In this document: positions 10,542 through 35,986 of the stretch, piece after piece
Position numbering within the stretch: position 1 is the first letter of the stretch
How the letters are laid out: every line of letters starts with the position of its first letter
Source: Sulfurimonas lithotrophica
Lineage (GTDB): Bacteria > Campylobacterota > Campylobacteria > Campylobacterales > Sulfurimonadaceae
Length of the DNA: 64,000 nucleotides
Direction: 5' to 3'
NCBI RefSeq assembly: GCF_009258225.1
Contig: NZ_CP043617.1
Location: 1,922,001 to 1,986,000 of the forward strand
Notes under the pieces: generated by a model
Seen by the model: only the letters and a program-made list of their open reading frames with translations
Told to the model about the DNA's origin: nothing
Database searches by the model: none
Made by a program: the position numbers and the translations under genes

Positions 10542-10543
10542 TT

Positions 10544-11518: not shown

Positions 11519-11555
11519 AAAAAAATTCCTTTTTAAAAATATTATCTAATTATAG

Positions 11556-11578
11556 CGATAATGATATTAATTATCATT
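11556..11578. promoter_or_regulatory. Fur box between ABC operon and TonB receptor
   Basis: CGATAATGATATTAATTATC continues with ATT: GATAAT and ATTATC half sites form an extended palindrome 38 bp before the binding-protein start and about 120 bp before the receptor start. It could serve both divergent operons. Confidence 0.7.
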
Positions 11579-11614
11579 GATATGTGTCAAAAATTTATAT
11601 TCTTAAATTTATAT

Positions 11615-11629
11615 TGATAATGATTATTA
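11615..11629 (+). promoter_or_regulatory. Second Fur box before the TonB receptor
   Basis: TGATAATGATTATTA, one mismatch from the perfect 7-1-7 palindrome, lies 69 bp upstream of the receptor start at 11698. Its presence argues against any translation start further upstream. Confidence 0.75.
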
Positions 11630-11697
11630 CTTTAAGTATTAAAACTAAACTTTTTTATTACAATTTCGAAAATGCAAATATTTCAAAGGAAAATAAA

Positions 11698-14337: not shown

Positions 14338-17300
14338 ATGATTATAAAATGGATAATAAGTTTTTTTATTAAGTATAAATCTTTTAACCATTTATTATTT
14401 ATATTTTTAATTATTTTGGCAGGTTTTTCATATAAAGATTTGCCAAAAGAGATGTTTCCTCCTTCATCACCGGATAAAGTAGTAGTATCGGGTGCATATT
14501 ATTCTTCAAGTTCTCAGATGTTGGATATGATGATTGTAAGAGATTGTGAAGATATTCTAAAAAATAATCCCAACATTGAAAATATTAGTACCGTAATTAC
14601 TAAGGGTTCTTACCATATCACTGCCGATATACTAAACAATCATAAAAACTTTATAGTTAACGAGTTACAAAACGAAATTTTAAAACTAGATGAAAACTAT
14701 CCTACGGACATGAAACTGCCGACCATAAAAACCGTATCCCAAGTTTTTCCTTTAATCTCGGTATCCCTATATAAAAAAAATGATTCTCCAGTAAATATCG
14801 TTGAAATTGCAAAAGATCTAAGAGATGAAATATCTTCGGTAAAAAATATATATGAAGCAGCCTTGGTAGGTCAATATGACAAAACTTTAAGGTTAGTAAT
14901 TAACAATAATAAAATTGAAGCTTACAATCTATCGATGCAAAAAATAATTAATAAGCTTGACTTTTTATATATTATCTATCCTGCCGGTGTAATTCAAACA
15001 AGTAAAAATCAATATTTTATAAATCCAAAATCATTAAACGTGTCTATAGATGAGATATTAAACACGAAAATAAAAGTAGATGACAAAGTTATATATGTCA
15101 AAGATGTAGCAGACGTGGAAAATATATATGAAAAAGATTCTTTAGAAACAAGGACAGATGCAAAAAATTCTATTATTATCGATACTAAAAAGGCAAAAAA
15201 AGGAGATAGCATCAAACTATCTCAAAAAATCAATAAAATATTAAAGAGATATAAAAAACAATATCCAAACATTGAAATCAAAGTATTAAACGACAGTTCT
15301 TTTTGGATCAAAACAAGACTTAACGTCGTATCCTCAAATATAATTATAGGTCTTATTTTACTGTTTTTTACAATTTGGCTGTTTATCTCCCTAAAAATTG
15401 CTTTGGTCGTTATTATAGGTATTCCTGTTAGTTTTGCTTTTGGGCTTATAGGTTTAGAGTATTTTGAACACAGCTTAAATACACTCTCGATGATTGGTGT
15501 ATTACTTAGTTTAGGCTTGTTAGTTGATGAAGCTATCGTAGTTAGCGAAAATATACATAGGCATCAGATGCTGGGAAAATCTTTATATAGAGCCTGTATA
15601 GAAGGTACTTATGAAGTGATGCCGACCTTATTTGTAGCGGTTATGACTACAATTGTAGCTTTTTTACCGCTTGTAACTCTAAGCGGAGGGCTTGGGATAT
15701 TTATTAAAATTATTCCTATGATGGTTATAATACTTATAGTTAGCTCATTTTTAGAGAGTTTTGTTTTTTTGCCTGCCCACTATATGCTAATAAACAAATT
15801 AGCATTAAAATCTAACGATTCTATTAGAGAAAAATTTTGGCAAATTATATTGAAAAAATATACGAACTTACTATACAAACTTATAAGTCATAAGTATTTG
15901 GTTATATTAGTTTTAATCTTGGGCATTGTAGGAAGTACTGCTTTTATGCTTAAAAATTCAAAGTTTATACTATTTCCCGAATTTGATGCCATGAGTATAA
16001 ATATAACCGGAAAAAGCGATTACAATTCACTACAATATACCTCACGGCAAATAAAAATACTTGAACAAATACTCTTAAAAACACTAAATAAACAAAATTA
16101 TTCTTCCATACATACGACTATAGGTATGAAAACCGACGGAAGAAGTTTGCATGAAAAAGCAAATAATTTTTTTACAATAACTGTTAATCTAAAGCCAAGA
16201 GTAGCCCAAGACTTTTTTAATGCAAATATAAACCCTTATTTTCAAATTTTCGGTTCAAACCAAAATCAAAGCAGGACAAGAGTTCTAGATGCAAGGGATA
16301 TCCAAAAAAAAATAAACCATGCACTTAAGGATTATAAAAAATCATTAAATATAATTACAGATATCCCTCAAACGGGCGTAGTTAACAATGATATAGAGAT
16401 ATCTATATCCCATAAAAACAATGAAACTATTACCAAAGCGATTAAGATAATACAAGAGAAGATGCAAAATATAAGCGGAGTCGGCAATATAAAAAACGAT
16501 ATGAATTTTGATGATATTGTCATAGAGTTGAATCTCAATAATTACGCTAAATCTTTAGGTTTTACGCAAAAGGAATTTATAAATACTATACGAAAATATT
16601 TAATTATTCAAGACGTAACAAAAATTACAAACGCTTCAAGTGAACTTATAAAACTTCAACTTACTTCAAAACACAAAGATGATTATGCTTTATTTAAAAA
16701 TATCGAAGTAGATATACCACAAAGTAATCTTAAAGTAAATATATTAGATATTGTAAATATAAAACATAGTAAAAATATATCAACAATAAAAAAAGAAGAT
16801 TTAAAAAAAATTTTTACCATTACGGCATCTCTTGACAAAAAACAAACAAGTTCAAGAGAGTTTTATAAACAGTTACGGAGTTCTATAGATAGATTGAAAT
16901 CTCAGGGAATAAAAGTTTTCATAAAAGGCGAACAAGGTAAAAACCAACAAGTCAAAGAAGAGATAAGCAAAAGTATAATTTTTGCCTTTTTAGGAATACT
17001 GCTTATATTAACATGGTTTTTTAACTCTTTTAGATTATCCATATTTTCATTATCTGTCATTCCTCTTTCTTTATTGGGAATATTAATCGGTCACAAAATA
17101 GTAGGTTTACCTTTAACTTTCTCCTCTATGCTCGGATTTGTCGGCTTAATAGGGATTATTATGAATGATACTCTATTACTGCTAAAGTTTATTCATAAAT
17201 CAAAAAATATAGAAATATTAATCAAAAATTCAAGTTTAAGATTACGTCCTATTTTACTAACATCTATAACCACGATTGTCGGTTTAAGTACCTTGATATT

Positions 17301-17424
17301 TTTTGCTTCAGGAGAAAGTCTTCTGATGCAACCCTTAGCCGTAAGTATCGGTTTTGGACTTCTTTGGGCTACAATTATTAACCTTATTTACCTACCTGTA
17401 GCATATTCTATAAAATTAAATTAA
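14338..17424 (+). CDS. RND-family transporter without an adjacent adaptor
   Basis: A 1028-residue inner-membrane RND pump with two six-helix halves and two large periplasmic loops. TM4 reads SLGLLVDEAIVVSENIHRH, with Asp-Glu where AcrB has two Asp. The C-terminal half repeats the pattern (GFVGLIGIIMNDTLLLLKFIHKS). Length and order match AcrB-type proteins. No membrane-fusion protein or TolC gene lies beside it; it follows the TonB receptor and Spy-like genes. Export of a siderophore or a stress compound is conceivable, but only context supports this. Codon use is very AT-rich like its neighbours. Confidence 0.85.
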   Translation: MIIKWIISFFIKYKSFNHLLFIFLIILAGFSYKDLPKEMFPPSSPDKVVVSGAYYSSSSQMLDMMIVRDCEDILKNNPNIENISTVITKGSYHITADILNNHKNFIVNELQNEILKLDENYPTDMKLPTIKTVSQVFPLISVSLYKKNDSPVNIVEIAKDLRDEISSVKNIYEAALVGQYDKTLRLVINNNKIEAYNLSMQKIINKLDFLYIIYPAGVIQTSKNQYFINPKSLNVSIDEILNTKIKVDDKVIYVKDVADVENIYEKDSLETRTDAKNSIIIDTKKAKKGDSIKLSQKINKILKRYKKQYPNIEIKVLNDSSFWIKTRLNVVSSNIIIGLILLFFTIWLFISLKIALVVIIGIPVSFAFGLIGLEYFEHSLNTLSMIGVLLSLGLLVDEAIVVSENIHRHQMLGKSLYRACIEGTYEVMPTLFVAVMTTIVAFLPLVTLSGGLGIFIKIIPMMVIILIVSSFLESFVFLPAHYMLINKLALKSNDSIREKFWQIILKKYTNLLYKLISHKYLVILVLILGIVGSTAFMLKNSKFILFPEFDAMSINITGKSDYNSLQYTSRQIKILEQILLKTLNKQNYSSIHTTIGMKTDGRSLHEKANNFFTITVNLKPRVAQDFFNANINPYFQIFGSNQNQSRTRVLDARDIQKKINHALKDYKKSLNIITDIPQTGVVNNDIEISISHKNNETITKAIKIIQEKMQNISGVGNIKNDMNFDDIVIELNLNNYAKSLGFTQKEFINTIRKYLIIQDVTKITNASSELIKLQLTSKHKDDYALFKNIEVDIPQSNLKVNILDIVNIKHSKNISTIKKEDLKKIFTITASLDKKQTSSREFYKQLRSSIDRLKSQGIKVFIKGEQGKNQQVKEEISKSIIFAFLGILLILTWFFNSFRLSIFSLSVIPLSLLGILIGHKIVGLPLTFSSMLGFVGLIGIIMNDTLLLLKFIHKSKNIEILIKNSSLRLRPILLTSITTIVGLSTLIFFASGESLLMQPLAVSIGFGLLWATIINLIYLPVAYSIKLN

Positions 17425-17435
17425 TATAAAAATAA

Positions 17436-17457
17436 TAATGATAATTGTTTTAATTAT
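17436..17457 (+). promoter_or_regulatory. Weak Fur-box-like element before the haem operon
   Basis: A stretch holding AATGATAATT and a downstream AATTATC resembles overlapping Fur half sites, but the spacing is irregular. It sits just upstream of a better box. Confidence 0.4.
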
Positions 17458-17485
17458 CTATTTATAAGTTTTTGAATAGTATTTC

Positions 17486-17502
17486 GATAATGATTCTCAT
17501 TA
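17486..17502 (+). promoter_or_regulatory. Fur box before the Hmu-like operon
   Basis: GATAATGATTCTCATTA closely matches the classical Fur operator and ends 12 bp before the first gene of the haem operon. An AAAGGAAAA ribosome-binding site follows directly. Confidence 0.78.
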
Positions 17503-17514
17503 CAAAGGAAAAAT

Positions 17515-18003
17515 ATGATTGATTCTATAATGTACACCTTATCGCAGTTATTTTTAACCCCTACACTATTACTGATACTTCTTATGTTTGTATATTCATT
17601 TATAGCATTTGGCGGTTTTATCTATGAAGCTATTTCAAGAAAAAGAAACCATATGCATTTATATACAAAAGGTTTTTATCCTGTTATTAATTATTTTAAA
17701 ACAAATAACAATACCTCTATTGATGATTTAGAGTTATTTGCTTACAAAAGATTAGAGAATACTAGAAATGTCTCAAGGATAGCACCTATGATGGGTTTAA
17801 TAGCTACCCTTATCCCTTTAGGACCTGCATTAAAAGCATTAACCGACGGAAATATACAAGGGATGAGTGAAGGGCTTATAATAGCCTTTTCAGGAGTTAC
17901 CCTTGGTCTTATAGCAGCCTCTATGGCATTTTGGATAGGTAATGTCAGAAAAAGATGGTATGCGGATGAAATCTTGTATATAGACTCTCAGAAGGCTACA
18001 TAA
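17515..18003 (+). CDS. MotA/TolQ/ExbB-type proton-channel protein of Hmu-like operon
   Basis: A 162-residue inner-membrane protein with three helices (about 14-36, 88-108 and 118-142). The MotA/TolQ/ExbB signature is RIAPMMGLIATLIPLGPALKALTDG, then GLIIAFSGVTLGLIAASMAFW. It differs from the ExbB encoded with tonB at 34803. Together with the following DUF2149 protein it forms a pair also found beside CobN-like genes in Bacteroidetes haem operons and in some archaea. It probably powers, or is powered for, the CobN-like protein rather than TonB (inference). It overlaps the next gene by 1 bp (TAATG). Confidence 0.82.
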   Translation: MIDSIMYTLSQLFLTPTLLLILLMFVYSFIAFGGFIYEAISRKRNHMHLYTKGFYPVINYFKTNNNTSIDDLELFAYKRLENTRNVSRIAPMMGLIATLIPLGPALKALTDGNIQGMSEGLIIAFSGVTLGLIAASMAFWIGNVRKRWYADEILYIDSQKAT

Positions 18004-18329
18004 TGGCACTAAAACTACTACATGAAGACGATGATTCAAACCCAATGAATTCAGTTATTAATCTTATAGATGTTTTTTTGGTTCTTATTGCGGCACTTTT
18101 AATAATCATATCTCAAAATCCTCTTAATCCTTTTTCGAGCGATGACGTTACGGTTATAAAAAATGCAGGAAAAAAAGATATGCAAATAATGGTCAAAAAA
18201 GGCAAAGAGATAAAAGAATATAAATCAACCGGCAATATAGGCGAAGGAAACGGTGTTAAAGCCGGAGTGTCTTATAAAATGGAAGACGGTTCTTTTGTTT
18301 ACGTACCCAATGAAAAAGGAAAAAAATAG
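18003..18329 (+). CDS. DUF2149 membrane protein (ExbD-like role)
   Basis: A 108-residue protein with one helix (about 20-38: LIDVFLVLIAALLIIISQ) and an extracytoplasmic tail. The head MNSVINLIDVFLVLIAALL resembles ExbD/TolR, including an Asp at the start of the helix. The tail, with KDMQIMVKKGKEIKEYKSTG, matches DUF2149. It is expected to work with the ExbB-like protein encoded just before it. It overlaps both neighbours by 1 bp. Confidence 0.78.
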   Translation: MALKLLHEDDDSNPMNSVINLIDVFLVLIAALLIIISQNPLNPFSSDDVTVIKNAGKKDMQIMVKKGKEIKEYKSTGNIGEGNGVKAGVSYKMEDGSFVYVPNEKGKK

Positions 18330-21300
18330 TGAAAAATTTTATATTTATATTTATACTTTTAAGCAGCTTTTTAAATGCTGATAAAAATTTACCCGCAAAA
18401 CAAAGAGCAGAAGTTTTAATTATATCCACCACAATGGGTAAAAATCGTCAAGAAAGAAAAGCCAAACTTTTAAGCGAACAGTTAAAGCCGTATAACATAA
18501 GCTCGGAAATTATTTTTGATATAAAAAAAGAAAATGCTAAAGATATTTTATCCAAAAGAAGACTTATTATAGTAGATGCTCTTGATGGAAAAGGCGGAGT
18601 AGCAAGACTTTTAAGACAATACGAAGACATTATTGAAGATTTAAAAATTCCGTATATAGCGTTAAAATTAAATTATGAAAAATACGGAAATATGGAAGAT
18701 AATTTTGCTAAAAAATTATTAGCATATTTTGGCGAAGCAGGAAAATACAACTATGCCCAAGGTGCAGCGTTGTTAGCTAAGAAGTATTTTGGATTTAACA
18801 CAAACCCTCAGCCAGTACACAAACTCGGCAAAACAGGTATTTATCATCCGACAAAGGGTAAGGGTACGTTTAAAAACTTGGATGAGTATTTAAAAACACT
18901 TAGTGAAAAAGAGAGATCTCAACCAAAAATCGCAATAGCACTGCATCAGCAAAATATTGCATCCGATGATACGGCTATAGTCGATTATGCAATCGATAAA
19001 TTAAACAAAGCCGGCATAACCCCTATAGCTTTTTACACTGAAGTCGGCGAAGATGATTTTGCGGGAAAACGCTTTTTTATAAAAGACGGGAAAGTGCTTG
19101 TTGACTTAGTACTCTCTTTTCAAGTTATGATAATGGATCAAGAGAAGCTAAAAAAAGACTATACGGACATTGGACTAAAAGTTATGCACGGTATGGTTTA
19201 CCGTCAAGGTGAAAAAACCGAGTGGGAAAAAGACAAGCAGGGAATCTCAATGAATTGGATACCGATGAGTTACGTAATTCCTGAACACATAGGTTATACG
19301 GACCAGATGATAATAGCTGCACTTGATAAGGAGAGTAAAAAAACGACACCGATAGAGTATCAGTTAGATATGTTTATGAAAATAGCTATAAACAACTCAA
19401 AGCTAAAACAAAAACACAACAAAGATAAAAATATAGCTATTTTTTACTATAACTATCCTCCGGGTGTAAACAATTTCGGTGCCTCATATATGAAATATCC
19501 CGAATCTATTGAAAATATTTTAGATAATATGCAAAAAGCCGGTTATAAAACACAAAGTAAAAAAGCAGATTTTTTTATAAAAGAACTTCCTAAATCTATG
19601 GCTTATTATTACCAAAATACTTTATATGATGAAAAATATGCAGATTTATTACCATACAGTGAATATATGAAATGGTTTTATAAACTGCCCTTAGAGATTC
19701 AAAAACAGATAAATAAAGCTTGGGGTAAACCTCAAAACAACCAGTTTGTTATCCATAAAAACTCTAAAAAATATTTCATAATACCTAGATATAAACTAGG
19801 AAACGTAACTTTGCTCCCTCAACCGAGTCGTTCAAATTATAATGATAAAAATAACGAAGCCGCTTTGTATCACGATACTTCAAAACCTGTCCCGCATCAC
19901 TATCTAGCCGTATATCTGTACGTAAAAAAACAAAACGATGCAGTAGTACATTTAGGAACTCACGGGACATATGAATGGACATATGGAAAAGAAAGAGGTC
20001 TTAGTATATATGATTCTCCCCTTTTAAGCGTAGGGGAAATTCCAAATATATACCCGTATATTACAAATAATCTTGCTGAGGGAATTCAGGCAAAAAGACG
20101 TGGACGTGCTACTTTAATCTCTCATCAGACTCCGCCTTTTGGAGCAAGCGGGACATACAAAGAGTTAAGCGATATTATGGATTTGATAAACCAGTATCAA
20201 CAAAGCACAGATGCAGTAAAAGAAAAAACAAAAACAAAACTAATAGATTTGGTTATAAAAATGAATCTTCATAAAGATATGAAATATACAAAAGAGAAGA
20301 TGCAAACTCAAACAGAAGTTTTTGTGGCTGATTTGTATGACTATTTAAACGGTTTAAGCACTACCTTAACACCACTGGGGATGCATAAGTACGGTTCGTA
20401 TCCAAACGATGACCATATGGTTCAAACTCTTATGTCTATGCTTGGAGATGCTTATATAAAAGCAACACAAGGCGAGAAAGGATTAAGCGGAATCAACTAC
20501 AAAGATTTAAATAAGACAAATGCATATCAAACAATACAAAAGTTTGTAATTGAGAAAGAATCCAAAGAAAATTTAGATTCATCTTTATTACCTTTTATAG
20601 AAACGGCAAAAGTATATAGAGATAATTTTATAAATAATCAAGAGATAAAATCTTTGTTAAAAGGTTTAAACGCACAGTATATCCCGACAAGTGTTGGCGG
20701 TGATCCAGTGAGGAGTCCGGAGTCTGTTCCTACGGGTAAAAATATGTACGGATTTGATCCAGACCGTATTCCGACCGAAGCTGCATACGATACCGGAAAA
20801 AAAATCATGAAAGAGTATATACAAAATTATTATGCAACTCACGGGAAATATCCGGACAAAATCAGTTTTAACCTTTGGTCACTAGAAACTATGCGTCACT
20901 TTGGGGTACTTGAATCTCAAATACTATATGCTATGGGAATCAAGCCTATTTGGAGTAAAGGAGGAATAAGCGATGAAATGGTTCAAAGCATGGCAAAAGG
21001 AATTCTTGCAGGATTTTTAAGTGAAGATTTTGCAACATGGCTTAGTAAATTTGTAACGGTTGAAAGAATTAAAACATTTGATTTTTTAATGCCTGAATCT
21101 ATGAAAAAGAAATTTTATATGGCTTTAAAAATGGGTCGCGGAAAGATAAGCGGTGTTGAAATTATTCCATATGGAGATTTAAAACGCCCACGTGTTGACG
21201 TAGTTGTCCAAGCTACAGGTCTTTACAGAGATACATTTCCAAATGTTATGAAACTTATTCAAGATGGAGTTGAAAAGATATCTACACTCAAAGAGGAACA

Positions 21301-22417
21301 TAACTATGTTAGAGAACATACCTTAAGTCTGGAGAAAATGCTTTTAGAAAAAGGTTACAGCGATAAAGATGCAAAATATCTATCAACAGCAAGAATGTTC
21401 TCGGCAAAAAGCGGTGAATACGGAAACGGTGTATCAGATACCGCTATGGCAACCGAAACTTGGGAAGAAGAGAATAAAATAGCCACAAACTATCTAAGAA
21501 AATCCGGTTATATATATGGTTCTGACACGTCGCGTTGGGGTGAGAAGCTTGAAGATACAGATCTTTTTGCACAAAACCTAAAGGGAAGTGATGCAGTTAT
21601 GTTCTCTCGAACGTCAAACTTATACGGCATGATGACCTCGGATGACCCTTATGGATATTTTGGTTCAATGGCACTTGCTATTAGAAGCATAGACGGAAAC
21701 TCCCCACAGATGTTAATCTCAAATCTACGTGATCCAAACAATGCAAAGATGCAAAACGTAAGCGAGTTTATTTCAAACGAACTTCGTACCAGATACTACA
21801 ATCCAAAATGGATTGAAGAGATGCAAAAAAGCGGTTACAGCGGAGCAAACCAAGTTTTAGACGTCGTAAATAATTTTTGGGGTTGGCAAGTGGTATATCC
21901 TGATGGTGTACGTTCGGACCAATGGCAGGAATTTGTTGATATCTATTATGACGATAAATACGACATGAAAATGGATGAATGGTTTGAAAAAACAAATCCT
22001 ACGGTACGCGCGCAAATGGCAGAAGTAATGCTTGAAGCTATAAGAAAAGGATATTTTCAAACAGATGCAAAGACTATAAAAAAGCTTGTAGAAACACTTG
22101 AAGATATCTCAAAAAGATTTAATCACAAAAGCGAAAATAAAAAACTTAACGAATTTATAAAAGCACAAAAATCAGTAGGTTACGGTCTAAGCATACCGGT
22201 TGCAAAACCTGTAGCAAAGGCTAAAGCAAATGCGAATAAACCGGTAGTTAAAGCAAAACCGAAAATTAAAGGTCAAAAACTAGAAGAGGTTAAAAAAGAA
22301 CAAAAAGAAAAAACTGACTATTCGGAAATTTTACTTTACTCTTTTTTAGCATTTTTAATTTTAATCGGAATTTTTTACGAAATGAGAAACAACTTTAAAA
22401 CAAGGCATTTAAAATGA
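18329..22417 (+). CDS. Membrane-anchored CobN/HmuS-like chelatase, candidate haem dechelatase
   Basis: A 1362-residue member of the CobN/magnesium-chelatase H-subunit family. Unlike CobN it has a signal peptide (MKNFIFIFILLSSFLNA) and a C-terminal anchor (about residues 1333-1349, ILLYSFLAFLILIGIFY) after a Lys/Ala/Pro-rich linker, so its catalytic body should face the periplasm. The family core is clear: HLGTHGTYEW (His541, His545), PNIYPYITNNLAEGIQAKRR, LISHQTPPFGASG, GGDPVRSPESVPTGKNMYGF and SNLYGMMTSDDPYGYFG. No cobalamin biosynthesis or CobST genes are nearby; instead it sits among haem-uptake genes. This matches HmuS of Bacteroidetes hmu operons, for which removal of iron from haem has been proposed. 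GTG start overlapping the previous stop. Confidence 0.85.
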   Translation: MKNFIFIFILLSSFLNADKNLPAKQRAEVLIISTTMGKNRQERKAKLLSEQLKPYNISSEIIFDIKKENAKDILSKRRLIIVDALDGKGGVARLLRQYEDIIEDLKIPYIALKLNYEKYGNMEDNFAKKLLAYFGEAGKYNYAQGAALLAKKYFGFNTNPQPVHKLGKTGIYHPTKGKGTFKNLDEYLKTLSEKERSQPKIAIALHQQNIASDDTAIVDYAIDKLNKAGITPIAFYTEVGEDDFAGKRFFIKDGKVLVDLVLSFQVMIMDQEKLKKDYTDIGLKVMHGMVYRQGEKTEWEKDKQGISMNWIPMSYVIPEHIGYTDQMIIAALDKESKKTTPIEYQLDMFMKIAINNSKLKQKHNKDKNIAIFYYNYPPGVNNFGASYMKYPESIENILDNMQKAGYKTQSKKADFFIKELPKSMAYYYQNTLYDEKYADLLPYSEYMKWFYKLPLEIQKQINKAWGKPQNNQFVIHKNSKKYFIIPRYKLGNVTLLPQPSRSNYNDKNNEAALYHDTSKPVPHHYLAVYLYVKKQNDAVVHLGTHGTYEWTYGKERGLSIYDSPLLSVGEIPNIYPYITNNLAEGIQAKRRGRATLISHQTPPFGASGTYKELSDIMDLINQYQQSTDAVKEKTKTKLIDLVIKMNLHKDMKYTKEKMQTQTEVFVADLYDYLNGLSTTLTPLGMHKYGSYPNDDHMVQTLMSMLGDAYIKATQGEKGLSGINYKDLNKTNAYQTIQKFVIEKESKENLDSSLLPFIETAKVYRDNFINNQEIKSLLKGLNAQYIPTSVGGDPVRSPESVPTGKNMYGFDPDRIPTEAAYDTGKKIMKEYIQNYYATHGKYPDKISFNLWSLETMRHFGVLESQILYAMGIKPIWSKGGISDEMVQSMAKGILAGFLSEDFATWLSKFVTVERIKTFDFLMPESMKKKFYMALKMGRGKISGVEIIPYGDLKRPRVDVVVQATGLYRDTFPNVMKLIQDGVEKISTLKEEHNYVREHTLSLEKMLLEKGYSDKDAKYLSTARMFSAKSGEYGNGVSDTAMATETWEEENKIATNYLRKSGYIYGSDTSRWGEKLEDTDLFAQNLKGSDAVMFSRTSNLYGMMTSDDPYGYFGSMALAIRSIDGNSPQMLISNLRDPNNAKMQNVSEFISNELRTRYYNPKWIEEMQKSGYSGANQVLDVVNNFWGWQVVYPDGVRSDQWQEFVDIYYDDKYDMKMDEWFEKTNPTVRAQMAEVMLEAIRKGYFQTDAKTIKKLVETLEDISKRFNHKSENKKLNEFIKAQKSVGYGLSIPVAKPVAKAKANANKPVVKAKPKIKGQKLEEVKKEQKEKTDYSEILLYSFLAFLILIGIFYEMRNNFKTRHLK

Positions 22418-24372
22418 TTAAATTTCCGTTATCGATAGCTTTATTATCATCTCTGCTTTTAAGTGATGTTTTAGAAACAATAGAAGTAACTACCGGAACA
22501 AGGACTGCAAAAATATTAAGCGAAGCTCCTATAAAAACCGAAGTAGTAAGCCAAGAAGATATTGAAAAAACACACGCTAGAGATATAAGCGATGCTATAA
22601 AAAATATCCCTGGTTTAATTATAAAAGAAACTCACGGAAAACAGGGACAAAGTGTTTGGATGCAAGGTTTTGATTCAGATAGAATATTAGTTTTAATAGA
22701 TGGCGAGCCTATGACAAGCTCACTTGGGAGTACCGTTGATTTAAGCCAATTAAGCACGAGTGATATTGCATCTATTGAGATAATAAAGGGTGCGGCATCA
22801 GCACTTTACGGTTCTCAAGCTATGGGCGGAGTAATAAATATCAAAACCAAAAAACCTAAAGAAGGCTTGACAAATAAAATAAAAATAGAAGCTGGTACAT
22901 ACGCTGACAAATCTCCAAATGACAGACCCGTTGGATTAATTGGGGCATCTACTAGCTACAAAACAAAAGAGTATTTAGCCAGTGCATATGTAGATTATTT
23001 ACATGAGAGCGGTGTAGTTTTAAATGATGCCTCCACTTATGACTTACCAAAAAGAAACAGAATAAATTTCAATAGCGAATATCGCACGCTAGGCAAACAT
23101 CAATTTTATATTAAACCTAGATATTATTATGAAGATACGTATAAACCTTTTACTAGTTTTGCGCCGGGAATCGGTGATGTAAACGAACTAAGAGAAGAAG
23201 ACGTAAATAAATTTCGACTTAGTATGGGAAGCGAAAGTGAACTACAAAACTTAGATAAACTCAAAACATCTATTTTTGCCGAAAGGTATGAATCAAATTC
23301 ATACCAAGATAAAATTCTAACGTCTTATGTCGAATCTTCTAGATATGCAACGATTGACTTGGTTCAGGCAGAAACTCAATACGATACGATTTTAAACGAT
23401 ACGCATATACTTACAATGGGGATGCAAGCAAGATATAATGCTTTGGAGCAGACCACGACAAAAGGGCAAGCCGGCGGTTCTGTTTCATCTGACGAAATGA
23501 ACGGGGATGCATCTGCATATGCTGTTGAGGGTTATATTCAAGACGATTGGTTCATATATGATAACCTAGAATTTTTACCCGGTCTTAGATACCAATATGA
23601 CAGTGATTTTGGTTCATACCTCTCTCCGAAACTATCTTTATTTTATACTCCGTATAATAATGAAGAAAATAGATTAAACATAAGAATATCTTACGGAAAC
23701 GGATATCGCGTACCGACCATAAAAGAGCGTTATTATATTTTTGACCAATCACAAGCAGGAGTGATGCTTGTGGGGAATCCCGAGTTGGAACCTGAAACTT
23801 CTACTTCATATCAAATATCTACGGAATGGATAGAAAAAAATCTCTATTCCTTAGCCATAAACTTATATTACAACGATATCAAAGACTTAATAGATTTAAA
23901 AAAAAATATATCCAGAAGCCAACTTGAAGGTTTAGATATTTACGAATATACAAATGTTAACAAAGCTTACACGAGCGGTTTTGAACTAGAATTTGGATTT
24001 AAGTTTTTAAATGATTTTAGTTTAAACGGCGGATATACTTACCTTTACTCAAAAGATAAAAACACAAAAAAACATCTTACTTCTAGACCTGAAAATCAAT
24101 TAAAAGCAACTTTGGCTTACGATACGGCTAAGTTAAATATACAAGCTTCTTTGACTTATGAAGGAAAACACTATGTCGATAGCCAAAACAACAGAGTATC
24201 GCCCAAACAAACCTTGGCAGATATCAGATTTACGTACAGTTTAAACACAAGATTGAAAATATACGGCGGAATAAATAACTTTTTAGATGAACACGAAGAC
24301 TCTAAAAATGTCGATGATGAAGGCTCAACCAAACCGAGATATTTTTTTATAGGCAGTTCTTATGAGTTTTAA
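22414..24372 (+). CDS. TonB-dependent receptor 1 of Hmu-like operon (HmuR-like, His445 replaced)
   Basis: A 652-residue outer-membrane receptor: signal peptide (about 1-18), TonB box-like ETIEVTTG, plug (DAIKNIPGLIIKETHGKQGQ, SALYGSQAMGGVINI) and a barrel ending in SSYEF. It is a tandem paralogue of the next gene, with the same length and with key motifs at the same residue numbers. The haem-receptor region reads YRVP (431-434) and NPEL (455-458), with Gln445 where the second receptor has His. A plug-domain His74 is shared by both. It overlaps the chelatase gene by 4 bp and the second receptor by 11 bp. The ligand may be haem, a porphyrin or a haem-protein complex. Confidence 0.85.
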   Translation: MIKFPLSIALLSSLLLSDVLETIEVTTGTRTAKILSEAPIKTEVVSQEDIEKTHARDISDAIKNIPGLIIKETHGKQGQSVWMQGFDSDRILVLIDGEPMTSSLGSTVDLSQLSTSDIASIEIIKGAASALYGSQAMGGVINIKTKKPKEGLTNKIKIEAGTYADKSPNDRPVGLIGASTSYKTKEYLASAYVDYLHESGVVLNDASTYDLPKRNRINFNSEYRTLGKHQFYIKPRYYYEDTYKPFTSFAPGIGDVNELREEDVNKFRLSMGSESELQNLDKLKTSIFAERYESNSYQDKILTSYVESSRYATIDLVQAETQYDTILNDTHILTMGMQARYNALEQTTTKGQAGGSVSSDEMNGDASAYAVEGYIQDDWFIYDNLEFLPGLRYQYDSDFGSYLSPKLSLFYTPYNNEENRLNIRISYGNGYRVPTIKERYYIFDQSQAGVMLVGNPELEPETSTSYQISTEWIEKNLYSLAINLYYNDIKDLIDLKKNISRSQLEGLDIYEYTNVNKAYTSGFELEFGFKFLNDFSLNGGYTYLYSKDKNTKKHLTSRPENQLKATLAYDTAKLNIQASLTYEGKHYVDSQNNRVSPKQTLADIRFTYSLNTRLKIYGGINNFLDEHEDSKNVDDEGSTKPRYFFIGSSYEF

Positions 24373-26320
24373 AATATTTTTACTTTTAGCTTTATCGATA
24401 ATTTTAAATGCACAAGTAATCGATAAAATCGAAGTAACTACGGGAACCAGAACAAATAAAGTTTTAAGTGAAGCTCCAATTAGAACAGAAGTCGTTACAA
24501 AAAAAGACATAGCAAACTTACATGCAAAAAATGTTAGTGAGGCTATTAAAAATATTCCCGGTTTATTAATTAAAGAGACTCACGGAAAACAAGGTCAAAG
24601 TGTTTCTATACAAGGTTATGATTCTGATAGAGTACTCATTTTAATCGACGGTGAACCCATGACCAACCCAAGTGGACAGACGGTAGATTTAACTCAACTA
24701 AACGTAAATGACGTAGAGTCTATAGAGATAATCAAAGGTGCTGCATCTGCGCTTTACGGTTCTCAAGCTATGGGTGGTGTTATAAATATAATCACTTCAA
24801 AACCAAAAAACGGTAATCATAATTCAGCCTCTCTTGAACTTGGTTCATACCTTTCAAAATCACCTGATGATATGCCTGTAGCACAGGCAAAACTATCTTC
24901 AACCTACAAAGACGACAATATAGCGGCTTCAATATATGCAGATTATAAACATGACAGCGGCGTAAAATTAAAAGATGAATTTACATATGCATTACCTGAA
25001 GCAGACAGACTTAATTTAAATGCAGAGTTACGTTTTTTAGCTCAAAACGAATTTTACGTCAAGCCCAGAATATATCTAGAAAGAACTCTTAAACCTTTTA
25101 GTTCATTTGTCCCGGGAACAGGAGAAGTAAAAAAAGAAAAAGATGAAGTTGCACAAAAATACAGACTTGGGCTAGGCGGCAGCGGTAAATTAAAAAATTC
25201 CGATAGTTGGAAAATCATGGCATTTGGAGAAAGATACTATGATACTACCGAGACAAATACACTCTCAACATCATACATAGAGAATATACGTGAAGCCGTA
25301 ATAGACTTGGCTCATCTAGATTCTCAATACGATACTACGTTTTTAGATTCGCATCTGATTACTATGGGTATTACTTTAAAATATCAAGCACTTGAACAAG
25401 AAGAAATCAAAAATTCCCAAACAAATAGCATAAAAATAAATGAACTAACGGGTAACGCTTCATCTCATACTTATGAAGTTTATATACAAGATGATTGGTT
25501 TATAACAAATAATTTTGAAGTTTTACCGGGCTTTAGATACCAAAACGACAGTGATTTCGGTTCTTATTTATCTCCTAAAATCTCTTTTTTATATTCTTTT
25601 ATTGATAATGATTACAATAATCTCAATATTAGGGCATCTTACGGTAACGGTTATAGAGCACCTAGTATAAAAGAGCGTTACTTTAATTTTGACCATTCAC
25701 AGTATGGATATATGGTTATCGGAAATCCTAATTTAGAGCCTGAGAGTTCACACTCTTACCAGTTATCGTTTGAGTGGATTAGAAAAAAAAATTTTAACGC
25801 AAATATTAACTTTTACTATAACGATATTAAGGATTTAATAGATACTAAAAAAAATATTCAAAAAAGCATCCTTAACGGTTTGGAGATACATGAATATATA
25901 AATATAGACTCAGCATTAACATCCGGAGTAGAGATAAGCGGTGCTTTTTATTTTATGAATCATTATTCTATAAACGGTGGATATACATATCTTTACAGTG
26001 AGGATAAAAATACAAAAAAACATCTTACATCCAGACCGGAACATCAAGTAAAAACAATACTTTCTTATAACAAAAGCACTACAAATATACTACTTAGTTT
26101 TATCTATGAAAGTGATGAGTTCGTTGACAGTGAAAATAAAATAAAATCGCCGTCTTCCACTCAAATAGATATTAAAATGACCACGTACGTCACTAAACTG
26201 CTAAGCATCTACGGAGGTATTAATAATCTTTTAGATAATCATCAAAATGTTGATGACGAGCATGATTTGCGTACAAAAAGACCTAGATATATCTACGCAG
26301 GTGTTACATACAATTTCTAA
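24362..26320 (+). CDS. TonB-dependent receptor 2 of Hmu-like operon (HmuR-like haem receptor)
   Basis: A 652-residue outer-membrane receptor with signal peptide (about 1-17), TonB box-like DKIEVTTG, the plug and a barrel ending in VTYNF. It carries the haem-receptor signature: YRAP at 431-434, His445, NPNL at 455-458. In Porphyromonas HmuR the motifs are YRAP, a His 11 residues after its Pro, then NPDL; the Pro-to-His distance here is also 11. The plug His74 may be the second axial ligand. It is the best candidate haem channel in the window. Start ATG lies inside the previous gene with an 11-bp overlap. It probably receives haem from the lipoprotein encoded next. Confidence 0.88.
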   Translation: MSFKIFLLLALSIILNAQVIDKIEVTTGTRTNKVLSEAPIRTEVVTKKDIANLHAKNVSEAIKNIPGLLIKETHGKQGQSVSIQGYDSDRVLILIDGEPMTNPSGQTVDLTQLNVNDVESIEIIKGAASALYGSQAMGGVINIITSKPKNGNHNSASLELGSYLSKSPDDMPVAQAKLSSTYKDDNIAASIYADYKHDSGVKLKDEFTYALPEADRLNLNAELRFLAQNEFYVKPRIYLERTLKPFSSFVPGTGEVKKEKDEVAQKYRLGLGGSGKLKNSDSWKIMAFGERYYDTTETNTLSTSYIENIREAVIDLAHLDSQYDTTFLDSHLITMGITLKYQALEQEEIKNSQTNSIKINELTGNASSHTYEVYIQDDWFITNNFEVLPGFRYQNDSDFGSYLSPKISFLYSFIDNDYNNLNIRASYGNGYRAPSIKERYFNFDHSQYGYMVIGNPNLEPESSHSYQLSFEWIRKKNFNANINFYYNDIKDLIDTKKNIQKSILNGLEIHEYINIDSALTSGVEISGAFYFMNHYSINGGYTYLYSEDKNTKKHLTSRPEHQVKTILSYNKSTTNILLSFIYESDEFVDSENKIKSPSSTQIDIKMTTYVTKLLSIYGGINNLLDNHQNVDDEHDLRTKRPRYIYAGVTYNF

Positions 26321-26329
26321 GGAGAAAAA

Positions 26330-27430
26330 ATGAAATTAAACAAAATGTATATATTAAGCACTCTTGTATCTTCAATGCTAATACTTAGTGGTTGCGGCGG
26401 CGATAGTGGTAGCTCTGCTGTAGTTATTCCAAATCAATCTACGGCAGAGACAACTTCTATGGATGCCAGTAGCGGTGCAGAAACAAAATTTAATCTATCG
26501 AGCGGTTTAGTCGATTCAACGACTTGGCACTTTGCTTACCAAAAATACTTAGGCTTTAAAACAAATGGCGGCAGCAGCGGCAATGGCAGTATTACAGCTT
26601 GTGTAGCCAAAACTTACGCTGATCTTTACGATACTAATAACAACTCGGTTCAAAGTGAGTTTGAAGCACTTAATGCAACAAATACTTTAAGTGATTTTGA
26701 GGCTGTAAGTATGGATGATTGTAATTCTAGTGCATATATCGAAGACTCTATAGATACTCAAATAGAGACAAGTACATGGCTAGATGCAAGCTACGGTCCC
26801 GGAGGTCCTGTTTTTTCTGCCAAAACAGATAGCAACAACAGTTATATAATAAGGTCTGCCGATGGAAATTCTTATGCTCGTGTAAAAGTGAAAAGCGTTG
26901 ACGTAAATTTAAGTGCGGGTAGCAGAAAGCTTGTTTTATCATCTGAATTATGGAACGGTACTGCATGGACAGCTGCTCAAGATTCACCGGAACTTGATTT
27001 TTCAAGTTCAAAAGCTTATTGGGATCTTGAAACAAACGGTCTAAGCGATGCTGCAAATGAGTGGGAGTTGGCAGTAAGCGTTGCAGGGCAAGATTATCCT
27101 CTGCAAGTTAACGGCGGTGCAAGCGGAGACGGAAACGGAGGAGTCGGACTTGTTATTAACGAAGATGCAACAACCGTTACAGACCCTACAAACACTTCTG
27201 AAGTTTACACGTATTTTGCAGACAGTGCAACAGGTGCTCTATCTAGTCCAGGAAGTTATGGTCCTTTAGAGTACGGTGTAGCAGGCGGACACTTAATGTG
27301 GCCGACATTTGCCGTATATATAATTGACGACGGAGTTGATAAATATAAATTTCAAATTATCTCAAACAATGGCCAAAGCGGTGCACTTTCAAGCGGAAAC
27401 TTAGTTATTAGGTATCAAAAATTAGACTAA
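26330..27430 (+). CDS. HmuY-like lipoprotein with two repeats, candidate haem carrier
   Basis: A 366-residue lipoprotein: the lipobox LILSGC puts the lipidated Cys at 22, followed by a Gly/Ser/Asp linker that does not block surface export. Two HmuY-like halves are visible. The first has TTWHFAYQKYLGFKTNGGSSGNG (W66, NGG at 79-81) and later YIIRSADGNSYARVKVKSV. The second has NEWELAV (W245), LQVNGGASGDGNGG (NGG at 261-263) and then GGHLMWPTFAVYII and DKYKFQIISNN. In HmuY the segment before Y-I-I holds the haem ligands. Here His321 and Met323 occupy that place in repeat two. It ends the operon, 9 bp after receptor 2, with an AAGGAG site, and a terminator-like hairpin follows. Confidence 0.78.
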   Translation: MKLNKMYILSTLVSSMLILSGCGGDSGSSAVVIPNQSTAETTSMDASSGAETKFNLSSGLVDSTTWHFAYQKYLGFKTNGGSSGNGSITACVAKTYADLYDTNNNSVQSEFEALNATNTLSDFEAVSMDDCNSSAYIEDSIDTQIETSTWLDASYGPGGPVFSAKTDSNNSYIIRSADGNSYARVKVKSVDVNLSAGSRKLVLSSELWNGTAWTAAQDSPELDFSSSKAYWDLETNGLSDAANEWELAVSVAGQDYPLQVNGGASGDGNGGVGLVINEDATTVTDPTNTSEVYTYFADSATGALSSPGSYGPLEYGVAGGHLMWPTFAVYIIDDGVDKYKFQIISNNGQSGALSSGNLVIRYQKLD

Positions 27431-27454
27431 GAAATGGGCAACGCCCATTTCTTA
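27428..27454. terminator. Hairpin between convergent haem operon and outer-membrane gene
   Basis: A perfect 12-bp stem with a 3-base loop (27428-27439 with 27443-27454) starts right at the HmuY-like stop and contains the stop codon of the convergent gene. Neither strand has a good U-tract directly after it (an A-run follows on the plus side), so it is a strong structure but not a textbook terminator. Confidence 0.6.
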
Positions 27455-28411
27455 AAAAAGATACCCTACCATAAATATATATCTTTGTTTTTCCAAAGGT
27501 TGATAAACCGATGCATTATAATGTGTCAAAAGAGATACGCCAAAATCTACATGAATTTTTGGTTTATCAAAAGGCAACCATTGAATTTGAGGTGTTATAT
27601 ATCCGATTGTACCGCTAAAAGATTTAAAAGGGAAAGGATTGACAGGTTCGGGATCAGTCCCGGAATCAGTATCTGTATTGTATTTTCCGTTATACTCAAT
27701 ACCCAAGTTTAAACTTTTTAAAACTGCATAATTTATACCCAAGTCATAGCTAAGTTCATCCCCGAAATCATAATCATGTTTTGCATCCGGTCTATATGTG
27801 TACATAGTGTGTGCATCTATACGCATATTTGGCATAAGCATTTTTGAGAATCCAAGTTCTAGCTTATACTCGGCACTTCCCGTACCTAACTGAGTCGGCA
27901 TCGGTGTTGTCATATTTGGATTACTCGGAGGACCTTTTTCAAACTTTTCATCACTTGAACCGGTAGGCAGTTTTACACCCGCACCGATTGAAATGGCATA
28001 ACCCTTGTCTTTCATGCTCACTAGTTTGTATCTTCCCATTACAATAATATCGCCAAGACCTTTATTGTCGATTTTTACCGGGAATTTCATAGCTGCGTAA
28101 GTATTAGGCAGAGTCGCATCCGCACTTAATCGCTTATATGGAACTATCACTTTTAGATCCATATTCTTACTAACTCCGTAAACTAAACCAAATAAAGTAA
28201 TATTCGCAGATGCATCCAAGCCCTGTTGATTATATACTTCATTTGTGCCTTTATACATAGTATCCTTATCAAAACTTATATTTTTGATAAGCATCTTAAA
28301 CTTACCCTCAGGCAATACCATAGCACCGCCTTTAGAATTAACCGTAGGGATAACCTGTGCATTAATAGTTACAGATAAAACTATAAATGCATACAATAGA
28401 CTTTTTTTCAT
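27452..28411 (-). CDS. Fur-controlled outer-membrane barrel protein (MetA-phenol-degradation type)
   Basis: A 319-residue protein with a signal peptide (MKKSLLYAFIVLSVTINA) and a predicted barrel of alternating strands (GLGDIIVMGRYKLV, YAISIGAGVKLPTGSSDEKF, AEYKLELGFSKML), ending in FMVGYLF. The LPTGS and early VYGVSKNMDLKVIVPY segments resemble the Phenol_MetA_deg / transporter-like family. The function of that family is poorly known. The start is set at 28411, with GGAG 6 bases upstream. Two Fur boxes lie upstream and the gene is convergent with the haem operon, so an iron-linked outer-membrane role is likely. Confidence 0.68.
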   Translation of the reverse strand: MKKSLLYAFIVLSVTINAQVIPTVNSKGGAMVLPEGKFKMLIKNISFDKDTMYKGTNEVYNQQGLDASANITLFGLVYGVSKNMDLKVIVPYKRLSADATLPNTYAAMKFPVKIDNKGLGDIIVMGRYKLVSMKDKGYAISIGAGVKLPTGSSDEKFEKGPPSNPNMTTPMPTQLGTGSAEYKLELGFSKMLMPNMRIDAHTMYTYRPDAKHDYDFGDELSYDLGINYAVLKSLNLGIEYNGKYNTDTDSGTDPEPVNPFPFKSFSGTIGYITPQIQWLPFDKPKIHVDFGVSLLTHYNASVYQPLEKQRYIFMVGYLF

Positions 28412-34412: not shown

Positions 34413-34799
34413 TCATTTGGCAGATTCGTTAATCAAAGCAAGATTATTCAAGTCATACTTTTTCAACAAATCAAATAACTTTATAATACGCTCATAACGA
34501 ACTTCCTTGTCTATACGTACGTTTATAGGACTTTTTTTATTTTTAACCCGAGAGAGAGACGTATCTAGTTGCTCAAATGTAATCTCTTTACCTTTTAGGG
34601 CTATTTTTTCACTTGAGAGTTCGATATTTACTTCCTCTTTTTTTACCATCTCTACAGGTGCTTCACTAGATGGAAGATTTAAAAGCAGTGCCAATTGATC
34701 TTTTTTAAATGCAGTACTTACCAAAAAGAAAATCAAAAGTAAAAAAACAACATCTACAAGTGGTGTCATATCCGGAGATAATGGTTCACGACGACGCAT
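34413..34799 (-). CDS. exbD: ExbD, TonB-system proton-channel subunit
   Basis: A 128-residue protein with one helix near the N-terminus: MRRREPLSPDMTPLVDVVFLLLIFFLVSTAF contains the conserved membrane Asp in PLVDVVFLLLIF. The periplasmic domain ends in IIKLFDLLKKYDLNNLALINE. With ExbB it drives TonB using the proton gradient. It lies 3 bp after exbB. Confidence 0.95.
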   Translation of the reverse strand: MRRREPLSPDMTPLVDVVFLLLIFFLVSTAFKKDQLALLLNLPSSEAPVEMVKKEEVNIELSSEKIALKGKEITFEQLDTSLSRVKNKKSPINVRIDKEVRYERIIKLFDLLKKYDLNNLALINESAK

Positions 34800-34802
34800 A
34801 AT

Positions 34803-35330
34803 TTACTTCTTATATACAGCAGGGAGAATTTCGCTGGTAACTGTTGCTTCTAAACCATCAAGCATCCCGATTAAATAGTTATATCCTATGTAGTGAGGAA
34901 TAGCTACGATTAAACCTGCTACAGTCGTAATAAGTGCCATAGAGATACCTCCCGCAAAAACAGATGGATCACCCATACCGCTTTTTGAAATCGCTTCAAA
35001 TGCCAAAAGAACACCCGTTACCGTTCCAAGAAGCCCTAGTAAAGGGGATATGGAAGCTATAATTTTAACTGTTCCAAGTCCACTCTCTACCGTATAAAGT
35101 TTTTTAGACATCTCATCTTTAATGAGTTCGACTATGATGTGTTCATCTTTTAAAGGTACTTCCTTTTCCTTAATATCCGCAATTACCTCTTCAAGGAGTA
35201 CTGCCTTATAACGTTTAGTCATTATTATTTGAATAAACTTTACCAGCATAGTAGTAAAACCTATAATATTCAGTGCTATCAAAATATAAACTATAACTCC
35301 GCCTTGTTGTATGTAATCCATTAGATTCAT
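34803..35330 (-). CDS. exbB: ExbB, TonB-system proton-channel subunit
   Basis: A 175-residue protein with three helices; the conserved block is [28 protein letters not shown], then [22 protein letters not shown]. The start is 35330 ([11 protein letters not shown]) because AAAGGAG lies 6 bases upstream. A longer frame would overlap tonB and lacks a site. This is the dedicated TonB partner, distinct from the ExbB-like protein of the haem operon. Confidence 0.95.
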
Positions 35331-35344
35331 TTTTTCTCCTTTAT

Positions 35345-35986
35345 TTATCTCAGCCTGTATTCTATAGGCACTACTATTTCCCAACTGTTTTTTTCCAGCT
35401 CATCGGGAATAGGATTAAATTTTTCAATACTATTTAGCGTTTTTAAAGCTCCCTTATTTAGTCTTTTATATCTAGACGCTTCTTGCAGGGTTATATCTTT
35501 TATTGAACCGTCTTTTAAAATAGTAAATTTTATTTTTACAGTACCCTCACGCTTTAATCTTTTTGCTTTTTTGGGATAATATTTCTTTTTTTCTATCGCC
35601 ATTTTTACTTCCGTAATATACTGCGACTCGATTATCTCAATTTCTGTCGCCGATAATTTCGGTTCTTCTTTAACCGGTTCGGGTTCCGGAATTATTTCAA
35701 GTTCAGGTTCTTGAACTATCTCGGGTTCGGGAATTACTTCAGGTTTTACAACAGGTTTTGGTTCCGGTTTGGGCTTAGGCTTCGGTTTTGGTTTTGGCTT
35801 CGGCTTGATTTTTGGTTTTGGTTTTGGCTTCGGTGCTACAGTAACATTACGCAAATCAAGTTTTTGTACTGTTTCTTTTTTTGTTGCTATTTTTTGATTC
35901 TGTGTAGCAAAATTTACTACTAAAAGTATATGAACAATAGAAACAACTACAAAAACAACTATAAAAACAACTTTTATGTTTATCAA
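35345..35986 (-). CDS. tonB: TonB energy-transducing protein
   Basis: A 213-residue protein with an N-terminal anchor (about 5-25), a long Pro-Lys then Pro-Glu spacer (about 52-110, alternating KP followed by EP/PE runs) that spans the periplasm, and a C-terminal domain [29 protein letters not shown] with the family YP motif. It should energise all three TonB-dependent receptors in the window. It lies 40 bp downstream of a 26-codon ORF and 145-235 bp downstream of two Fur boxes. Confidence 0.95.

Follow-up and report, generated by a model that had tools for sequence, protein, structure and literature searches.

A probable haem-iron acquisition operon of Sulfurimonas lithotrophica, with predicted Fur control, joins two modules of different history

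Results

The window analyzed here is a stretch of 64,000 nucleotides from Sulfurimonas lithotrophica (contig NZ_CP043617.1, positions 1,922,001 to 1,986,000 of the forward strand; coordinates below are those of the window unless a locus is named), a bacterium whose genome comprises 2.4 Mb in 2 contigs. Six open reading frames (ORFs) in the region 17431-27455 form an operon which, in our judgement, is probably a Fur-controlled haem-iron acquisition system whose two modules differ in their history, with de-chelation by a CobN-like protein and iron import by FeoB. The outer half of the operon, two TonB-dependent receptors and an HmuY-like lipoprotein, is by homology of the HmuY/HmuR kind and belongs to haem loci. 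The inner half, consisting of the genes for an ExbB-like, a DUF2149 and a CobN-like protein, is, judging from its sequence relatives, native to Campylobacterota. Homology and context give good support to haem capture and uptake, the former of which, at the cell surface, had been claimed in an earlier sequence-only reading of this DNA; removal of the iron would be the task of the CobN-like protein.

Organization and predicted control of the operon

The sequence-only reading had described a tightly coupled, Fur-led operon of six genes, and all ORFs and overlaps were recovered, the gene spacings being -1, -1, -4, -11 and +9 bp. On the + strand, the genes encode an ExbB/MotA-like proton channel protein resembling HmuU (17515..18003; PF01618 MotA_ExbB, 32.4 bits); a DUF2149 membrane protein resembling HmuV, with a single strong hydrophobic segment (18003..18329; PF09919, 97.5 bits); a CobN-like chelatase-family protein with a C-terminal membrane anchor, the proposed periplasmic de-chelatase (18329..22417, GTG start; PF02514 CobN-Mg_chel, 958 bits); two HmuR-like TonB-dependent receptors with Pfam plug and barrel, receptor 1 (22414..24372) and receptor 2 (24362..26320); and a two-domain HmuY-like lipoprotein (26330..27430; PF14064, 50.5 bits for a cut-off of 27), in which a lipobox, LSGC, was identified by eye. 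The HmuY, CobN and DUF2149 assignments thus hold in profile searches. Most analysis scripts took M as the initial residue of every ORF.

A Fur-box-like operator is predicted at 17486..17504 (+), 10 bases 5′ of the exbB-like start codon. It agrees with a Fur consensus in 15/19 positions and was equalled in 2/1000 simulations of that 150-bp stretch with first-order Markov backgrounds, which agrees with the suggested Fur control. Matches of at least 15/19 in the window number 14, at nine places (about 0.4 expected), some of them being overlapping registers of a single site. These places include the regions 5′ of feoB, of the ferritin gene and of tonB-exbB-exbD; the match inside the receptor 2 gene is probably due to chance.

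The simulation test was extended to the region upstream of exbB in related loci, the figures being uncorrected for the 21 rows tried. A Fur-like match reached at 5% or less of simulations was found in seven of the nine campylobacterotal loci: the window, the Sulfurimonas metagenome-assembled genome OB8, and genomes G254, G343, G304, G241 and G348. As for the two others, G186 gave 5.7% and G203 gave 21%, but in G203 a match at 0.2% lies 5′ of the upstream AraC gene. In this test, no such site was found 5′ of exbB in any of the eight loci from other phyla (0/8), nor at either of two divergent campylobacterotal CobN-like loci. The Fur-box-like sites before exbB favour iron over zinc, nickel and cobalt for the campylobacterotal clade.

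The receptors and the HmuY-like lipoprotein

The HmuY Pfam model covers residues 54-190 of the lipoprotein, i.e. its first domain only, and no Pfam match is obtained with the C-terminal half by itself. Profiles were made from the lipoproteins of the window, of Cupriavidus and of G261, a campylobacterotal genome that shares the window's order but falls in a different family. When these were aligned by hhalign, the two halves matched one another with a probability of 90% across 46 columns, and HmuY domains already known with 92% and 94%, so that the earlier description of a two-repeat, HmuY-related lipoprotein holds. The E-values of blast, phmmer and hhalign for the comparisons with G261, HmuY domains and locus ORFs refer to small sets. 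HmuY Pfam matches were obtained in 1/397 genomes of the phylum and 1/135 of the genus; these counts are undercounts, as the model misses the G261 relative even at E≤1. That relative is 39% identical to the window lipoprotein over 350 amino acids, and the idea that HmuY is unique to the window genome within its phylum was accordingly rejected. The Cupriavidus lipoprotein (locus L051, 8921-10261) carries the two domains in swapped order, the weaker half matching at E 0.045 in a three-sequence set. HmuY gave no match in plasmid records at E≤1, and viral contigs contained no match to the window HmuY query or to a Bacteroides HmuS query. For the HmuY-like protein, an AlphaFold prediction from the sequence alone was of poor quality, with a predicted local distance difference test (pLDDT) score of 35.8.

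Receptors 1 and 2 share 56% identity. In a tree, they group with the HmuR proteins of Prevotella, Bacteroides and Aureibacter and with those receptors of Cupriavidus and Leptospira that are paired with HmuY (Shimodaira-Hasegawa-like approximate likelihood ratio, SH-aLRT, 97); SH-aLRT is the only support value of this tree, and a long-branch warning concerns one pair inside the HmuR clade. Receptor 2 has a plug histidine, His74, and His445, situated between YRAP and NPNL, both in common with the G261 and Cupriavidus receptors. The residue between YRAP and NPNL is Met in the HmuR of Prevotella and Bacteroides and Asp in that of Aureibacter. In receptor 1 it is Gln; this receptor may prefer porphyrins that are metal-free or hold another metal, and it is possible that the tandem receptors split ligands between them. 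When receptor 2 was used as query at E≤1e-60, 2/397 phylum genomes gave a match, its own and G261. The best relatives outside the phylum in the plasmid collection are those of Cupriavidus (31-32% identity) and Leptospira (26-27%).

The neighbourhoods of these relatives are haem loci. The G261 locus (L060, 5242-12539) encodes a HutZ/HugZ-like protein, a substrate-binding protein, a FecCD permease and an ATPase, then a receptor and a two-domain HmuY lipoprotein. PNPOx_N and FecCD score over cut-off in it, and HutZ (124 bits, cut-off 225) and IsdE (73 bits, cut-off 299) under. Its receptor is 46-48% identical to the window receptors, and the receptor-lipoprotein order is that of the window. No CobN-like match was found for G261 in the 397-genome search, assuming that the same genome draw was used. 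In Cupriavidus metallidurans (L051; one of four Cupriavidus records examined), the receptor gene is followed by genes for the two-domain HmuY protein, HemS/ChuX, a substrate-binding protein, FecCD and an ATPase. In Leptospira (L052), the receptor gene adjoins that of an HmuY protein, and haem oxygenase and repressor genes lie 3-5 kb off, the haem oxygenase gene at about 3 kb. The three loci hence resemble the window in a receptor (26-48% identical) with a neighbouring HmuY-family lipoprotein, the two-domain form being common to window, G261 and Cupriavidus. They differ from it in the system that accompanies the receptor: ATP-binding cassette (ABC) import with a HutZ/HugZ-like protein or HemS in G261 and Cupriavidus, a nearby haem oxygenase in Leptospira, and the CobN-like module in the window.

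The CobN-like protein and its module

Among solved structures, the best match of the CobN-like protein is the HmuS de-chelatase of Bacteroides thetaiotaomicron (9d26, 408 bits); ChlH (319) and CobN (304) score lower, and homology to 9d26 extends across most body domains. NCBIfam CobN models match strongly yet under their cut-offs (best 1152 vs 1248). A signal peptide and a membrane anchor had been proposed: the anchor was confirmed as a C-terminal membrane segment at residues 1330-1353, and the N-terminal signal stands as judged by eye, no 19-residue N-terminal window reaching a hydropathy of 1.6.

In two 28-row trees, the protein is nested among 10 campylobacterotal rows that make up one clade (100* and 100/100). 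The neighbours of this clade are Pseudoalteromonas and, next, proteins of alpha- and betaproteobacteria; the three HmuS proteins of Bacteroidota fall in a separate clade (the Cupriavidus row is a 1040-residue stretch without stops). The approximately unbiased (AU) test rejected a single group made of the campylobacterotal rows and HmuS (p 4e-18), and likewise a grouping of the window protein alone with HmuS (p 1e-68). Six features of HmuS were then compared, namely Met79, His254, His538, His1209, Glu1212 and a Met-rich insert, all drawn from PMC12583661. One of the six is kept: His538, in HLGTHG for HmuS HFG(T/A)HG. Its mutation abolished activity of B. thetaiotaomicron HmuS (PMC12583661), and it is conserved throughout the superfamily, so that it does not discriminate for HmuS identity. 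The proposed relationship to HmuS therefore stands as kinship, but not as identity; on the evidence of trees and residues, the window protein is a non-HmuS member of the superfamily outside the HmuS clade. A role as the B12 cobaltochelatase CobN was also rejected: CobS (TIGR01650) is found in 0/1 own genome, and a separate btu-like locus exists. Neither a family search with selected window ORFs nor inspection by eye revealed a cob gene in the window.

CobN-like matches were obtained in 10/397 genomes of the phylum, eight full-length and two very divergent; the full-length ones are the window's own and seven at 45-79% identity. The order exbB-DUF2149-cobN is conserved in all eight genomes and in OB8, which gave, at one locus, the sole match in a scan of the genome-contig collection. 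In the tree, the OB8 protein is sister to that of G343, which belongs to the genus of the window genome. The window's exbB-like gene is 44-77% identical to those beside the seven closer campylobacterotal CobN-like loci, and the CobN-like protein is 43-79% identical to those of OB8, G254, G343, G203, G304, G186, G241 and G348 (first copy; G348 has a second one without adjacent exbB and DUF2149). These eight loci share the three genes with the window in the same order, Fur-box-like sites precede exbB in 6/8, and an RND (resistance-nodulation-division) gene is nearby in 6/8. They differ in that the receptor, where visible, is of another family, the OB8 contig ending first, and no HmuY-like ORF was found in any of the eight. 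The receptors of the seven genomes constitute a distinct family (44-76% identity for the pairs given), about 24-28% identical to the window receptors; the best match of that family in the window genome reaches 37% across one third of the query, or 28% over nearly full length.

The RND efflux protein of the window is encoded just upstream of the operon (14338..17424, +; PF00873, 362 bits), and a homologue adjoins the module in 7/9 campylobacterotal loci, the window counted. That this pump exports porphyrin is a speculative suggestion. The two very divergent CobN-like proteins, in G370 (L028, 7204-11559) and G359 (L029, 6046-10458), have 1451-1470 amino acids and an adjacent ExbB-like gene; at these loci, blast found no match nearby to the window DUF2149 protein or receptors, and no Fur-like site lies in front.

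A CobN match was found in 159 plasmid records, of which 13 neighbourhoods were examined, plus 3 from another list. DUF2149 proteins, annotated or found, lie beside the CobN-like relatives of Azospirillum, Comamonadaceae, Trichlorobacter, Runella and Pseudoalteromonas; the annotation of the Comamonadaceae stretch shows no receptor. The window follows this pattern of a TonB-linked ExbB-DUF2149-CobN-like module, its three genes adjoining a receptor gene and its protein falling in the same CobN-like clade. On plasmid pRUNSL01 of Runella (L035, 2044-12761), a TonB receptor, a 'urease accessory protein' (NicO match weak and under cut-off), ExbB, DUF2149 and CobN-like proteins are encoded inside a hyp hydrogenase-maturation cluster, which suggests that this cluster serves nickel supply.

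Genomic context

The operon lies in a Fur-box-rich iron island (5279-47700) with feoB, NnrS/ABC genes, TonB receptors, ferritin, flavodoxin, TonB-ExbB-ExbD and an imelysin/di-haem cluster; the sequence-only reading makes no mention of it. The FeoB ferrous iron importer (5279..7411, -; PF02421, 195 bits; Fur-box-like site at 7657) is the only FeoB_C match in the genome and is encoded about 10 kb from the operon. ExbD, ExbB and TonB (34413..35986, -; PF02472, PF01618 and PF03544; Fur-box-like site at 36200) are the proposed energy supply of the receptors. A flavodoxin gene is located 3 kb downstream of the operon, and another one beside the module in G186; flavodoxin was suggested as a possible electron donor by the authors of the B. 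thetaiotaomicron HmuS study (PMC12583661). Ferrochelatase and HemD are encoded in the genome.

It had been noticed that no haem oxygenase or haem ABC importer is visible near the operon, and this holds for what was covered genome-wide: the HugZ model matched in 0/1 own genome, canonical haem oxygenase not having been searched at that scale, and a Peripla_BP_2 search of the genome found no haem-type binding protein. The only Peripla_BP_2 protein adjoins a receptor, a permease and an ATPase in the btu-like locus, where the receptor scores best as BtuB and the binding protein as BtuF, both under cut-off. No Rfam match, and hence no cobalamin riboswitch, was found in window positions 1-40000; as the btu-like locus itself has no Rfam match, this negative is weak.

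Two further gene sets were observed in the island. NnrS, a NitT/TauT-type ABC importer and a TonB receptor are encoded together at 7716-13857 (compare L021, L022 and L031), and two Sulfurimonas-like genomes and a Diaphorobacter plasmid have this set next to CobN-like modules. At 36560-43851, two imelysin-family lipoproteins, DHOR and a CCP_MauG di-haem protein are encoded, with Fur-like sites at 43864; this cluster is probably a second iron-related system.

Discussion

A proposed route and its alternatives

In the route we favour, the two-domain surface lipoprotein would bind haem and hand it over to the two related receptors, which TonB-ExbB-ExbD would power, and haem would move into the periplasm. 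There, the membrane-anchored CobN-like protein may take haem in its central cleft and release Fe(II), leaving porphyrin, and the ExbB-like/DUF2149 pair may couple de-chelation to the proton gradient or reset the CobN-like protein. The released iron could then be imported by FeoB and stored in ferritin, for both of which genes are present; the need of Bacteroides fragilis for FeoAB in haem-iron use offers a precedent for the FeoB step (PMC6460266). As ferrochelatase and HemD are encoded, the cell probably wants iron and not porphyrin. The metal site would consist of the histidine corresponding to HmuS His538 and an Asp in the place of His1209, vs two His in HmuS, and with such a His/Asp site the chemistry or the substrate range may differ.

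A number of observations weigh against this reading. In the CobN-like protein, the HmuS motif LSLDHxxEFMGG, which contains His1209 and Glu1212 and is kept in 3/3 HmuS controls, reads MTSDDPYGYFGS, with Asp and Gly at the two sites; at position 1209, 10/10 rows of the campylobacterotal clade and 5/5 of the CobN clade carry Asp, the BchH row and the Azospirillum relative having His. The site-1 haem ligands Met79 and His254 are aligned with Leu and Val (the controls have His254 in 3/3 and Met79 in 2/3, Aureibacter being without it), and the Met-rich insertion amounts to 0 residues, the controls having 154, 49 and 238 residues with 30, 6 and 8 Met, respectively; the last of these, from Aureibacter, is long but Met-poor. 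HmuT is not encoded in the operon, whose six overlapping or abutting genes leave no room for it. No window ORF matches three Bacteroidota HmuT proteins at E≤0.01, in a search run without a positive control, and DUF2162 is found in 0/1 own genome, yet Prevotella HmuT itself has no DUF2162 match.

The outer half contributes further points of this kind. The known HmuY iron ligands appear not to be conserved in the lipoprotein, Tyr standing in repeat 1 at the position of Porphyromonas gingivalis His166; ligands vary within the HmuY family, and some members use none (PMC12106395). Receptor 1 keeps the plug histidine and has Gln in place of His between YRAP and NPNL. NCBIfam models leave the ligand unsettled, all scores being under cut-off: a haem model is best for receptor 1 (208 bits), PRK13483 for receptor 2 (211 vs 191 for haem), and for the Cupriavidus receptor B12 scores 199 and haem 195. 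A more distant Halomonas relative of the receptors (27% identity) lies in a stretch with two receptor-like ORFs, recognized by eye, and an adjacent FecCD permease but with no HmuY-like ORF, so some relatives are not HmuY-paired. The other receptor family and the absence of an HmuY match beside the same module in seven campylobacterotal genomes mean that the ancestral ligand of the module may not be haem. Finally, a btuS1 btuS2 double mutant of B. fragilis still made free porphyrin from haem (PMC6460266), and CobN-like proteins may therefore not be the de-chelatase everywhere.

These points bear on the alternatives to different degrees. The CobN-like module might strip iron from siderophores or other iron chelates brought in by any receptor, haem being one of several ligands. 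The pairing of the module with receptors of the other family, in loci without an HmuY-like ORF, in G254, G343, G203, G304, G186, G241 and G348 speaks for such a function, and the G343 receptor is matched best by the catecholate model CirA (227 bits; haem 213; none over cut-off). We nevertheless consider it unlikely for the window, where an HmuY-like protein is encoded in the same operon, since the three HmuY-paired receptor neighbourhoods examined outside Bacteroidota lie in or near haem genes and those relatives of CobN whose function is known work on tetrapyrroles (PMC12583661). Somewhat less likely again is that the CobN-like protein is a periplasmic haem chaperone or regulator, haem entering the cytosol in another way, e.g. 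by the adjacent NitT/TauT-type ABC importer, and being degraded there. The loss of His1209, Met79 and His254 and the de-chelation retained by the btuS1 btuS2 mutant (PMC6460266) are compatible with this, as is the ABC importer with NnrS 6 kb upstream (7716-11518), also present beside the module in G343 and Diaphorobacter. The genome, however, gave no HugZ match and no haem-type substrate-binding protein, and FeoB and ferritin are encoded in the same island. No NitT/TauT importer is known to carry haem.

Handling of a cobalt, zinc or nickel tetrapyrrole or metallophore by the module appears improbable here, in spite of precedents elsewhere: the PA1922-1925 genes of Pseudomonas aeruginosa, with a cobN-like gene, are Zur-controlled (PMC4542158, PMC8531726), the Runella module lies inside the hydrogenase maturation cluster, and in Trichlorobacter ExbB-DUF2149-CobN is encoded a few kb from BzaF. 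It is opposed by the Fur-box-like sites before exbB in the window and its relatives, the presence of HmuY, the lack of a CobS match, the separate btu-like locus and, weakly, the riboswitch negative. Acquisition of the whole hmu operon from Bacteroidetes, the origin for which a phylogeny had been proposed as a check, would account for the hmu-like gene content and for the rarity of HmuY Pfam matches in phylum and genus. For the CobN-like protein, this transfer is rejected by its nesting among Campylobacterota (10 rows, 100/100) and the AU test (p 4e-18 vs union with HmuS); the nearest receptor relatives found are those of G261 (46-48%) and Cupriavidus (31-32%), the gene order is another one, and HmuT is missing from the operon, so that for the operon as a whole we regard it as very improbable.

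Haem-iron acquisition through CobN-like de-chelation remains our preferred reading, and a broader one may be built upon it. Tentatively, the ExbB-like/DUF2149/CobN-like trio might be a general, proton-driven periplasmic metal stripper that is re-aimed by a swap of receptor and lipoprotein. In the window, it would represent a second, non-HmuS lineage of haem de-chelatases, having a His/Asp site and no Met-rich insert or site-1 haem, and elsewhere it could serve zinc, nickel or corrinoid supply.

Comparison with known systems

CobN-like proteins in haem use are already known. Oxygen-free removal of iron from haem by purified HmuS was shown only recently, in Bacteroidota (PMC12583661), P. gingivalis HmuS is reported in haem metabolism (PMC13227078), and HmuY/HmuR pairs outside Bacteroidetes were reported in 2009 (PMC2671838). 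In the literature surveyed, i.e. titles and abstract openings with few subscription papers covered, no such system was found for Campylobacterota or Sulfurimonas.

With the hmuYRSTUV operons of Bacteroidota (P. gingivalis, B. thetaiotaomicron; loci compared: L037, L043 and L044), the window operon shares an HmuY lipoprotein, an HmuR receptor, a CobN-superfamily protein, ExbB-like and DUF2149 proteins, and organization as an iron-controlled operon. It differs from them in its two receptors, its Fur-box-like control, the lack of HmuT and a CobN-like protein that is not HmuS. The gene order is U-V-S-R-R-Y in the window, Y-R-S-T-U-V in Bacteroidota and R-Y-S-T-U-V in Aureibacter, whose HmuY also has two Pfam stretches, so that two domains are not unique to the window. 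The operon is hence Hmu-like in its working and not a member of the Bacteroidota Hmu operons, and the 'complete Hmu-type operon' of the sequence-only reading has to be given up on account of the missing HmuT-like gene, the other order and the second receptor. HmuS itself (9d26, PMC12583661) has the membrane anchor and the His538 motif in common with the window protein; the latter carries Asp for the second axial His and Gly for Glu1212, and it has neither the ligands of the site-1 haem nor a Met-rich insert. BtuS1 and BtuS2 of B. fragilis belong to a Bacteroidetes host, unlike the window protein. PA1922-PA1925 of P. aeruginosa resembles the window in combining a TonB receptor and a cobN-like gene in a metal-controlled operon, control being by Zur and not by iron (PMC4542158, PMC8531726); HmuY is unmentioned for it in the excerpts of these two papers.

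If the proposed route is correct, a CobN-like protein from a separate clade de-chelates haem without the second His, the Met-rich insert and site-1 haem, which would then be non-essential features, and metal stripping may be the function of many 'CobN' genes that lack cob partners. The haem pirates would then also include a Sulfurimonas-like bacterium with a ferrochelatase of its own. The window and G261 constitute a natural experiment, a related receptor and HmuY being joined to a periplasmic CobN-like back end in the one and to an ABC and HutZ/HugZ-like back end in the other. Next to the HmuS of Bacteroidota, the operon offers a test case for whether a second CobN-like lineage can pull iron from haem.

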